From: Alphaproteobacteria bacterium MarineAlpha9_Bin3
GTDB taxonomy: Bacteria > Pseudomonadota > Alphaproteobacteria > TMED109
Direction of reading: 5' to 3'
NCBI GenBank assembly: GCA_002937655.1
Contig: PTKH01000014.1
Location: 1 to 40,117, forward strand
Length of the DNA stretch: 40,117 nt
Shown here: positions 15,254 to 38,707 of the stretch, piece after piece
Position numbering within the stretch: the stretch's first letter is position 1
How the letters are laid out: the number at the start of each line of letters is the position of its first letter
Program-made: the position numbers and the translations under genes
Notes under the pieces: generated by a model
Databases searched by the model: none
Told to the model about the DNA's origin: nothing
What the model saw: the letters and a program-made list of their open reading frames with translations, nothing else

Positions 15254-16873
15254 TTATGAAATACCGAACGATTCAAAAAAGTCATTTCCTTTATCATCAA
15301 TCACAATAAAAGCTGGAAATTCTTTGACTTCAATTTTCCAAATGGCTTCCATTCCTAATTCAGGGTACTCAAGGCATTCTACTTTTTTAATGTTATTTTG
15401 AGCTAACTCTGCTCCTGGTCCTCCAATAGAACCTAAATAAAAACCTCCATTTTTTTTACATGAGTCTGTAACTTGCTTTGACCTATTCCCTTTAGCTAGC
15501 ATTATTCTTGAACCACCTTTTTCTTGAAACATCTTAACATAGCTATCCATTCTACCAGCAGTAGTCGGTCCAAAAGAACCAGTGACCATACCTTCTGGAG
15601 TTTTTGCGGGTCCTGCGTAGTAAATAGGATGATTTTTAAAATATTCTGGCATTTTTGCTCCTGAGTCTAATTTTTCTTTTATTTTTCCATGAGCCATATC
15701 TCTTGCTACAATTAAGGTTCCTGTTAATATTACTCTTGTCTTAACTTCATATTTGCTTAAAATCTTACATATGTCATCGATAGGTTTATTCAAATTTATT
15801 CTGACAGAATTTTTAGAAAGTTTTGAATCAGGTATTTTAGGGAAATATTTAGAAGGGTTTTTTTCTAGTTTTTCAATAAAAACACCATTTTCATTTATTT
15901 TTGCTTTTACTTGTCTATCAGCGCCACAGCTCACACCTATGCTAATTGGAAGACTAGCTCCATGTCTAGGAAGTCTAACTACACGAACATCATGACAAAA
16001 ATATTTTCCACCAAATTGTGCACCAATTCCAAATTTACTGGTCATACTTAAAATTTCTTTTTCCATTTCTTTATCACGAAATGCTCTACCACTATTATTT
16101 CCATTAATAGGTAGCTCATCTAAATATTTACATGTGGCCAATTTTAATGTTTTCATATTCAACTCTGCAGAAGTTCCTCCAATTACAATACCTAGGTGAT
16201 ATGGAGGGCATGCAGCTGTACCTATATTTTTGATAAGCGGTTTTAAAAAATCTAATATTTGTTTTGTTCTAATTACAGACGGAGTTGCTTGATAAAAAAA
16301 AGTTTTGTTTGCTGACCCTCCACCTTTTGCTACAAATAAGAAATTATACTCATTACTATTTGTAGAATATATATCAATTTGAGCAGGTAAGTTTGTTTTA
16401 GTATTTACTTCTTCAAACATTGAGAGAGGCGCTAGTTGACTATATCTCAAATTATTTTCGCTGAATGCTCTATAAATTCCTTTTGACAAAAATTCTTCAT
16501 CATCAAAATCAGTCCATATTAAAGAACCCTTTTTTGCGACAATTATTGCTGTTCCAGTATCTTGACACATTGGTAAAACTCCACCAGCAGCTGTATTTGC
16601 ATTTTTTAAAAGAGTTAAAGCTACATATTTGTCATTTTCAGAAGCTTCATCATCATCAAAAATATGGGCTATTTGTTTTAGATGAGATTCTCTTAAGAAA
16701 TGTGAAATTTCATAAAATGCAATTTTTGATACATTCTCTATAATATTGCTTGGTATATGTAATATGCTTTTTCCTTTAACCTTAGTTTTCTCAATTGGGC
16801 CTAAATCTAATTTTCTATAACTAGTTTTATCTTTTCCATATTGGAAGAGTTTTTCATAATTAAATTTAGTCAA
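15254..16873 (-). CDS. fumA: Fumarate hydratase class I ([4Fe-4S])
   Basis: A 539-residue class I fumarase, the oxygen-sensitive iron-sulfur enzyme that interconverts fumarate and malate in the citric acid cycle. The three cluster cysteines are visible at C103 (MCQDTG), C222 ([11 protein letters not shown]) and C316 (GVSCGAD), matching the spacing of E. coli FumA (105, 224, 318). N-terminal alpha domain and C-terminal beta domain (from about 360, with [25 protein letters not shown]-type core) are both complete. The ATG directly abuts the sspB stop, so the two genes are co-transcribed and probably translationally coupled. No odd residues are seen. Confidence 0.95.
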
Positions 16874-17320
16874 TTATTTATCCTTTTTAAAATCTTTAAT
16901 ATTAATTATATTCTCTTTATTAGAAATTTTATTTTCTTTTATTTTATTTTCATTGTAATTAACTTTAGGAAATTTCAAATGAAAATTTGCGAACGGATCT
17001 GAAAAAGATACTAATGAATTAAAAGGTATAGTTAGTGTATTTTTTATACCATCAAATGAAAGTTTTAAAGTAAAACTCTCTTTATCAACATTTAAATCCC
17101 AAAAAGAGTTTTCAATTACTATTGTCATTTCATCTGGATATTTCTTTCTAAGAGCATCCGATATTACTACGTCTTTATAATTTGTTATATAAGATATATA
17201 AAAATGGTGTTTATCAGGTAATCCTCTCTCAGATATATCATATAATAGTTTTCTAACTAAACCTCTCATTGCTTCAACAGTAAGCGCATCGTAGTCTATA
17301 GTAAGATAATTATCATGCAT
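16874..17320 (-). CDS. sspB: SspB-like ClpXP adaptor (alphaproteobacterial type)
   Basis: A 148-residue protein from the ATG at 17320; a TTG at 17338 in the same frame would add six residues (MEIKKL) but lies only 7 bases from the stem-loop that ends the tmRNA gene. IDYDALTVEAMRGLVRKLL, then GLPDKHHFYISYITN, YPDEMTIVIENSFWDL and LKLSFDG...LTIPFNSLVSFSDP are the ordered signatures of the alphaproteobacterial SspB family. SspB binds the ssrA tag on stalled translation products and tethers them to ClpXP. The C-terminus is lysine- and asparagine-rich and ends in a hydrophobic-basic stretch that could be the ClpX-docking tail. The tmRNA gene lies directly upstream on the same strand, and fumarase abuts downstream. 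Confidence 0.9.
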   Translation of the reverse strand: MHDNYLTIDYDALTVEAMRGLVRKLLYDISERGLPDKHHFYISYITNYKDVVISDALRKKYPDEMTIVIENSFWDLNVDKESFTLKLSFDGIKNTLTIPFNSLVSFSDPFANFHLKFPKVNYNENKIKENKISNKENIINIKDFKKDK

Positions 17321-17344
17321 AAGTTTTTTAATTTCCAATTTCTA

Positions 17345-17370
17345 GAAGTGGTAGATAAATCTACCACTTC
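17345..17370 (-). terminator. Stem-loop at the 3' end of ssrA
   Basis: A perfect 11-bp inverted repeat, GAAGTGGTAGA and TCTACCACTTC, with a 4-base loop. It is not followed by a T run on the minus strand (TAGAAATTGG comes next), so it is more likely a processing or 3'-end stability hairpin than a simple terminator. Transcription probably continues into sspB. Confidence 0.6.
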
Positions 17371-17669
17371 CAAGAGCGTTCTGTTGCCAGGTGCTTCTTA
17401 TACCTCGCCCAAACGGTGTGACGCGCTGGGAGTTCAACCACGGTATTACTTACTGCTTATGCAGCAAGAGCAACCTCACGACTATTGTCGTTTGCAGTTA
17501 TAAAATTGGCCCATTACGTAGGTACCATCCCGAGCAAAAGCAAATACCCTTCAATGCATGTCGATCCTATTTCACCCCCATAAATATTGGTGGAGGTGCC
17601 GGGTACTGCCCCCGGGTCCATTACATTTATATAATATCCCGTTTATTGCCATAGCTGATTTAAATCAGC
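17345..17669 (-). ncRNA. ssrA: tmRNA, circularly permuted two-piece ssrA
   Basis: Read on the minus strand, the order is permuted: 3' acceptor piece first, then 5' coding piece. The mature CCA end is at 17590-17588 (CACCTCCACCA). After 8 intervening bases (17587-17580) the other acceptor half starts at 17579 with GGGGGTG, then the D-arm-like AAATAGGATCGACA. The halves form a 7-bp acceptor stem with a G3-U70 wobble, the alanine identity element. The T-stem CCGGG/CCCGG encloses GGCAGTA, not the usual T-loop. The tag reading frame is 17495-17457 and encodes ANDNSREVALAA before TAA, with a CTGC/GCAG stem around the stop (helix 5). The gene ends near a perfect 11-bp stem-loop at 17345-17370. The 5' end is set from a TATAAT at 17681-17676 and is approximate. 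The product rescues stalled ribosomes. Confidence 0.93.
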
Positions 17670-17681
17670 ATTTTCATTATA
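17654..17681 (-). promoter_or_regulatory. ssrA promoter -10 box and overlapping palindrome
   Basis: On the minus strand a TATAAT at 17681-17676 is followed 6 bases later by the perfect 16-bp palindrome GCTGATTTAAATCAGC (17669-17654). The palindrome would therefore cover the transcription start. No convincing -35 box is seen. It could be an operator, or a hairpin at the 5' end of the precursor RNA. Confidence 0.5.
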
Positions 17682-17801
17682 ATAAATAGTAAATTTTAAT
17701 AAAGGATTTTAAAATATTTATTTATAAATTAAAAATAAATATTTTTATTAGTTAAATTATCGTTTATATATTTATAATAATTTATGAACTGAGGCTAATT
17801 G

Positions 17802-18746
17802 ATGACTAACTCAAAAAATAATCTTTCAAACGAACAAATAGATGAAATTAATGCTTTAAGAAATAGCTCTAGTGAGACGATAAGACCAGTTGCTAAAGGT
17901 ATTGAAGAAATATTATATAAAGTTTTTCCTGCTTTAGATCATGGGTTTGTAAGAGTAGTAGATTATATGGGAGATGACCAGGCAATAGTGCAAGCTGCAA
18001 GAGTGTCATATGGAAAAGGTACCAGTCGTGTGTCTGAAGATAGAGGTTTAATAAGATACTTAATGAGACATAGACATTCAACGCCTTTTGAAATGTGTGA
18101 AATAAAATTACATGTAAAGCTACCTATGTTTATTGCTAGACAATGGATCAGGCATCGAACCGCTAGTATTAATGAGTATTCAGCTAGATATTCGGTTTTA
18201 GATAAAGAATTTTATATTCCAGAAGAAAAAAATTTAGCAGTTCAATCAAAATTAAACAAACAAGGCCGAGGAGATACTCTTACACCAAAAGATTCTAAAG
18301 AGGCATTATTTTTGTTAAAAAGAGATGCAGAAAAATCCTATGAAACCTATGAATATTTATTAAATGAAAATCCAGAAGGTGATATTGTAGATAAAAATAG
18401 AGACGGATTATCCAGAGAGTTAGCAAGAATTAACCTTACTTTAAATACTTATACTCAATGGTATTGGAAAACCAACTTACATAATTTAATGAATTTTATA
18501 TTTTTAAGAGCTGATAGTCATGCTCAATATGAAATTAGAGTGTATGCAGATATCATCTATAAAATTATGGAGTCTTGGGTTCCAATTACAGCTGAAGCTT
18601 TTAAAAGTTATAGATCTGGTTCAGTTGAATTATCTGCTGAAGCTATGCAAGTTGTTAGACAAATGTTAGATGGGCAGCAAGTCGATCAAAAGACAAGTGG
18701 CTTAAGTGTTAGAGAATGGAATGAGCTACTTAATCATTTGAAATAA
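17802..18746 (+). CDS. thyX: Flavin-dependent thymidylate synthase
   Basis: A 314-residue ThyX, which makes dTMP from dUMP using FAD, NADPH and methylene-tetrahydrofolate. The ThyX signature RHRx7S is at R117-S127 (RHRTASINEYS), and YLMRHRHSTPFE (86-97) is the conserved FAD/dUMP-binding stretch. I start at the ATG at 17802 behind GAGG; a TTG one codon earlier is less likely. The protein is longer than the usual 220-260 residues, with an extended N-terminus of about 40 residues and an insertion around 145-175, as in the alphaproteobacterial subgroup. The 130 bases between ssrA and thyX are plain AT-rich DNA with no further gene. It converges with mrp, 6 bases apart. Confidence 0.95.
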   Translation: MTNSKNNLSNEQIDEINALRNSSSETIRPVAKGIEEILYKVFPALDHGFVRVVDYMGDDQAIVQAARVSYGKGTSRVSEDRGLIRYLMRHRHSTPFEMCEIKLHVKLPMFIARQWIRHRTASINEYSARYSVLDKEFYIPEEKNLAVQSKLNKQGRGDTLTPKDSKEALFLLKRDAEKSYETYEYLLNENPEGDIVDKNRDGLSRELARINLTLNTYTQWYWKTNLHNLMNFIFLRADSHAQYEIRVYADIIYKIMESWVPITAEAFKSYRSGSVELSAEAMQVVRQMLDGQQVDQKTSGLSVREWNELLNHLK

Positions 18747-37927: not shown

Positions 37928-38107
37928 AGTGTATTTTTAAATAACTTTGATACTATCAAAACAACATCTGTAGAGAAGTTTAGGCTTCACCAACCTGCCA
38001 AGATCTGGCAAAGGTGGTTCAACGATGTGGCTTTAATTAGCAACAATAAGATCGTAGGAACCTCTATTGATGGAAATCATTGGAGGTTTTTTTTATGCCT
38101 TCAATAA
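37928..38107 (+). other. Candidate structured leader RNA, or broken ORF without a start
   Basis: This stretch is less AT-rich than its surroundings and has nested complementarity: ACATC/GATGT could close a junction with GAAG/CTTC and TGCCA/TGGCA hairpins (about 37964-38030). The same bases read as an open frame of 59 codons with protein-like content (FRLHQPAKIWQRWFNDVAL, then GTSIDGNHWRFF) but no ATG, GTG or TTG at its beginning; a TAG precedes it. I do not recognise either. It ends in the stem-loop at 38057-38094 and is followed by tiny ORFs. It could be a riboswitch-type leader, a small RNA, or the tail of a decayed phage gene. Confidence 0.4.
38057..38094 (+). terminator. Terminator hairpin that includes a ribosome binding site
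   Basis: AACCTC pairs with GAGGTT, the stem continues through TATTGAT/ATCATTG with one mismatch to a GGAA tetraloop, and eight T follow. It is a good intrinsic terminator. The 3' arm contains GGAGG, correctly spaced before an ATG at 38095, so the same fold would both end transcription and hide a ribosome site. Confidence 0.75.
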
Positions 38108-38631: not shown

Positions 38632-38707
38632 GGGCCCTTAGCTCAGTTGGTAGAGCAGCTGACTCTTAATCAGCTTGTCGCAGGTTCGAATCCTGCAGGG
38701 CTCACCA
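38632..38707 (+). tRNA. tRNA-Lys(CTT)
   Basis: A complete 76-base tRNA with encoded CCA. Acceptor GGGCCCT pairs with AGGGCTC; D-stem GCTC/GAGC; anticodon stem GCTGA/TCAGC with loop CTCTTAA, giving anticodon CTT, which reads AAG lysine; T-stem GCAGG/CCTGC with TTCGAAT loop. It lies between the small-ORF region and the convergent SDR gene. A TAATAT at 38614-38619 is 12 bases upstream but is too close to be sure of as a -10 box. Confidence 0.97.

Follow-up and report, generated by a model that had tools for sequence, protein, structure and literature searches.

Circularly permuted ssrA genes are a well-described feature of Alphaproteobacteria, and the two-piece tmRNAs of Caulobacter and Sinorhizobium are the closest known counterparts of the RNA considered here. 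In S. meliloti, the precursor is unstable and two mature tmRNA pieces have been reported (PMC2873474). A 2007 study of Sinorhizobium further noted that both genes flanking the tmRNA gene are conserved in Alphaproteobacteria, and called the functional link uncertain (PMC2245857). In the current study, we describe an ssrA locus that resides within a stretch of 40,117 nucleotides of alphaproteobacterial DNA, which is hereafter called the window. Its ssrA is an ordinary alphaproteobacterial permuted two-piece tmRNA gene located in an ancestral neighbourhood. The main value of our analysis lies in correcting a claim of novelty. The observation made in a preliminary description of this DNA was right, and the system itself is ordinary.

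Features of the ssrA-sspB locus, listed in ascending coordinates of the window
Feature	Coordinates	Strand	Basis
Class I fumarate hydratase	15254..16873	-	PF05681/PF05683, NCBIfam
sspB (SspB-alpha, 148 aa)	16874..17320	-	PF04386, PDB relatives, alignment
Extra hairpin between tmRNA and sspB, no U-tract	17342..17373	-	fold, conservation
3'-terminal pseudoknot-like element of coding piece	17372..17405	-	read from sequence
tmRNA coding piece	17372..17579	-	ARAGORN, RF01849, sequence; 3' end approximate
Tag reading frame ANDNSREVALAA + stop	17457..17495	-	ARAGORN
Intervening segment ATATTTAT, 8 nt	17580..17587	-	sequence
tmRNA acceptor piece, first in gene	17588..17669	-	RF01849 alignment + sequence; 5' end approximate
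ssrA promoter CTTTAT (17704-17699), 17 nt, TATAAT (17681-17676)	17676..17704	-	conserved position
thyX, divergent neighbour	17802..18746	+	PF02511, TIGR02170

The preliminary description proposed that ssrA is circularly permuted and that a covariance search could establish this, and such a search with cmscan bears out the proposal. The alpha_tmRNA model (Rfam RF01849) matches the minus strand at 17370-17707 with 242 bits (E=3.2e-69), compared with a gathering threshold of 50, and is covered from end to end (model positions 1-355). A second Rfam model, RF04321, also matches the window tmRNA (150 bits). ARAGORN calls a permuted tmRNA at 17366-17683 on the minus strand and returns the tag ANDNSREVALAA, in agreement with the readable tag announced earlier. 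The tag frame carries a resume codon and an AA end, and the tags of congeners are identical or nearly so. A chance match or a misannotation of the tmRNA or of sspB is ruled out by the full-model Rfam and Pfam matches.

The gene is permuted in that the acceptor half precedes the coding half. The acceptor piece, whose length agrees with that of the 82-nt S. meliloti piece (PMC2873474), comprises the 3' tRNA half, the T arm and an encoded CCA at 17590-17588, and the sequence reveals that it ends with CACCTCC-A-CCA (17598-17588). The coding piece opens with the 5' acceptor strand GGGGGTG (17579-17573), which pairs with 17598-17592 to form an acceptor stem of 7 bp. This stem includes G3-U70, which is the alanine identity pair. 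At the other end of the coding piece, the pseudoknot-like element pairs AGGT (17405-17402) with ACCT (17392-17389) and contains a weakened stem formed by AAG-A-AGC and GCTCTT. Most members of the class have a stronger stem at the end of the coding piece, for example GGGGGC-ACCGGGCAACAGAA-GCCCCC.

A spacing of only 8 nt between the CCA end and the 5' half of the acceptor had been described, and it is evident in the sequence at 17587-17580. The intervening segment ATATTTAT is predicted to be lost during maturation of the RNA. Among 80 loci, intervening segments span 2-17 nt in AT-rich class members and mostly 20-58 nt elsewhere, and we therefore rejected the idea that the length is unusual, given that 8 nt falls within the range of the AT-rich relatives. 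Two loci (L069 and L077) have an intervening segment of 2-3 nt, such that almost nothing separates the CCA from the 5' acceptor half, and ARAGORN gave no call for the permuted tmRNA genes of these two loci.

Congeners carry the same promoter element at the same position upstream of ssrA. This element is present in 56 of the 80 loci versus 6.3% of random windows (P=2.5e-17 for the signal relative to a control region), and it resembles the published S. meliloti promoter consensus CTTAGAC-n17-CTATAT (PMC2245857). Given its location, the start of the Rfam match at 17707 takes in the promoter. The RF01849 model spans the promoter, and the transcript itself probably starts downstream of where the match begins, near 17669.

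The genes that follow ssrA on the same strand had been named as sspB and then fumarase, and both assignments hold. The predicted SspB protein matches PF04386 with E=3e-34 and 118.8 bits, well above the curated cut-off of 27, and its relatives with solved structures are PDB 2nys, 2qas and 2qaz (E values from 1e-20 to 8e-27). Translation of sspB is likelier to start at ATG 17320 than at TTG 17338, since the ATG starts of relatives align there. In an alignment, the C-terminal sequence IINIKDFKKDK falls at the class motif VVxLDxFRKK, which it resembles, and this tail may have the ClpX-binding role of the tail of E. coli SspB. Fumarase begins directly past the sspB stop codon with no gap. Elsewhere in the window, a match to the SAM-I/IV riboswitch was found on the plus strand (37959-38057, 55.8 bits). 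No ORF of at least 90 aa follows it on that strand within the window, where a tRNA-Lys (38632-38707) is the sole feature past the riboswitch.

The distribution of this gene arrangement was surveyed by searching RF01849 and PF04386 each in the same 116 genomes, of which 92 have both genes and 79 have both on one contig. In 69 of these 79 genomes, the tmRNA is located immediately upstream of sspB in the same orientation, with 40-217 nt between the end of the Rfam match and the start of the Pfam domain. In seven others the two genes share a strand and lie less than 20 kb from each other, and in three they are far apart. Because 17 of the 69 linked genomes come from the family of the window and each remaining family of the class is represented by one genome, the family-corrected value is 53 of 63. 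An independent set of organism-named SspB loci, which are mostly from Rhizobiales and include Bradyrhizobium, Devosia, Bosea, Magnetospirillum and Methylobacterium, has the tmRNA directly upstream in 65 of 80 cases. No ssrA-sspB proximity was evident in 75 genomes of the phylum from outside the class, all of which have both genes; 16 of these have both on one contig, with the nearest pair separated by 165 kb. A divergent thyX upstream of ssrA and a fumarase downstream of it were each observed in at least 37 loci, these counts being lower bounds because some of the loci are truncated. The order thyX-ssrA-sspB-fumarase is an inherited block, and most of the class has ssrA and sspB side by side. 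That the tag maker precedes the tag reader in so many families, with no such case seen outside the class, provides a hint of joint expression. The linkage is dispensable, because 10 of the 79 genomes have the two genes in non-adjacent positions.

Two additional loci depart from the common pattern. Locus L141 of the related genome G009 (approximately 1360-1610) retains the thyX-ssrA-fumarase block without an intact sspB, and a 40-aa frame in the gap resembles a decayed SspB start by eye only; BLAST revealed no similarity of this frame to SspB. Locus L139 of genome G076 encodes a tmRNA tag, AKSDYAEYALAA, that does not have the usual ANDN start, and no SspB was found in this genome, which is 97% complete. 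It is possible that SspB loss and tag drift are linked.

We consider it probable that some transcription runs from ssrA on into sspB and fumarase. Read-through is likely because the ssrA promoter is clear, none is apparent before sspB, the gaps are short and, at most junctions (53 of 69), the tmRNA stem is not followed by a T-rich tail. The 100 nt preceding sspB have a promoter score no better than that found inside sspB (P=0.63), as judged with a matrix built from ssrA promoters that other promoter types could escape. In 19 genomes the sspB start is within 45 nt of the last tmRNA stem. One alternative, which we judge to be unlikely but worthy of attention, is that ssrA and sspB are neighbours by inheritance only and yield separate transcripts, wherein the tmRNA stops at a hairpin and sspB is transcribed from a promoter of its own that may be located within the tmRNA gene. 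Separate transcripts would be consistent with the strong hairpin located exactly at the ssrA-sspB junction of the window, with the T-rich tail that does follow the tmRNA stem at 16 of the 69 class junctions, and with the existence of the 10 non-adjacent genomes. However, this hairpin is not followed by a U-tract in five related genomes, the region before sspB has no promoter signal above the control, and five members of the family leave just 14-16 nt between the last tmRNA stem and the sspB start. The preliminary description had held that a strong transcription end at 17345-17320 combined with a separate sspB promoter would speak against its single transcript. The stem at 17342-17373 could terminate or cut the transcript and thus partly matches this description, whereas neither the U-tract nor the sspB promoter signal was found.

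The junction hairpin folds with a predicted energy of -19.8 kcal/mol (z -6.1) and forms 12-14 bp directly after the weakened 3' stem of the tmRNA. It is specific to the genus of the window and a second genus of that family (L062-L066). Given that none of the five genomes has a T-run after the hairpin, its assignment as a canonical intrinsic terminator is unsupported, and its presence as a single copy in the genome led us to reject a dispersed repeat. On the simplest reading, the hairpin is a stem that protects the 3' end of the tmRNA or takes part in its processing, and it may also help to set the expression of sspB. A more elaborate proposal, which we regard as doubtful, is that the hairpin is a control element that shields the 3' end left on the tmRNA by an RNase cut and determines the amount of transcript that reaches sspB. 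Its confinement to two genera beside a weakened tmRNA 3' stem points in this direction, as does the retention of all 12 counted pairs, with a single compensatory change, across five genomes, although covariation among these five sequences is not above the shuffle control (157 of 500). At the corresponding position G009 has an unrelated hairpin, which likewise could suggest a control function, but no intact sspB follows there and thus that hairpin cannot serve sspB.

It is extremely improbable that the pairing of a tag maker with its tag reader, which the preliminary description set apart as undescribed, is an unusual or perhaps new arrangement of the window genome. We rejected it as unusual, since it is the prevailing arrangement in both surveys above, and conserved tmRNA neighbours were published in 2007 (PMC2245857), even though our literature search, largely without subscription journals, found no paper that names ssrA-sspB adjacency outright.

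With these alternatives in mind, we have high confidence in the overall account, which involves a permuted ssrA in an ancestral block, RNA processing, tagging, SspB delivery and probable read-through. Its anatomy, family membership and class-wide gene order are drawn from the results presented above, and its processing, tagging and delivery steps are modelled on studied relatives. A sigma-70-type promoter at 17704-17676 would generate a precursor RNA, from which tRNA-processing enzymes are predicted to excise the 8-nt segment to leave an acceptor piece of ~82 nt and a coding piece of ~208 nt. The two pieces would stay joined by base pairing, and the resulting RNA would add ANDNSREVALAA to stalled proteins, as in related systems, such that SspB-alpha could hand the tagged proteins to ClpXP. 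Until processing frees it, the coding piece would be carried in the 5' region of the sspB transcript.

SmpB is present in the same genome, and neither ClpX nor ClpP was found in the window's assembly. Three congeners (G003, G005 and G006) encode both proteins at neighbouring positions, and both are present in G001. Because the two are missing together yet are adjacent in congeners, we attribute their absence to an assembly gap, and the side-by-side clpP-clpX genes of congeners also led us to reject a genus that has SspB and no ClpXP. As a speculative extension that we consider rather improbable, the tmRNA coding piece might double as the sspB 5' leader throughout the class, in which case one promoter would set both tag making and tag reading, 3' processing would decide the survival of the sspB message, and the genus-specific hairpin would have been added as a tuner.

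Among known systems, the thyX-tmRNA locus of Pelagibacter ubique resembles that of the window in having the tmRNA beside thyX, but differs in that the table of the corresponding paper names no sspB beside the tmRNA (PMC2704228). The window SspB is similar to the SspB-alpha proteins of known structure (PDB 2nys, from Agrobacterium locus AGR_C_3712, 2qas and 2qaz) in its sequence and C-terminal tail motif, and it is distinguished by a shorter linker and by the particular sequence of its tail. For the RNA itself, the counterpart is the alphaproteobacterial two-piece tmRNA represented by RF01849 and by the ssrA genes of Caulobacter and Sinorhizobium. Shared characteristics include the permuted order, the encoded CCA, a tag of the form ANDN...AA, the 3' pseudoknot-like element, the upstream promoter and a leader hairpin. 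The window tmRNA differs in its short intervening segment, which is normal for AT-rich relatives, and in its weakened 3' stem followed by the extra hairpin.
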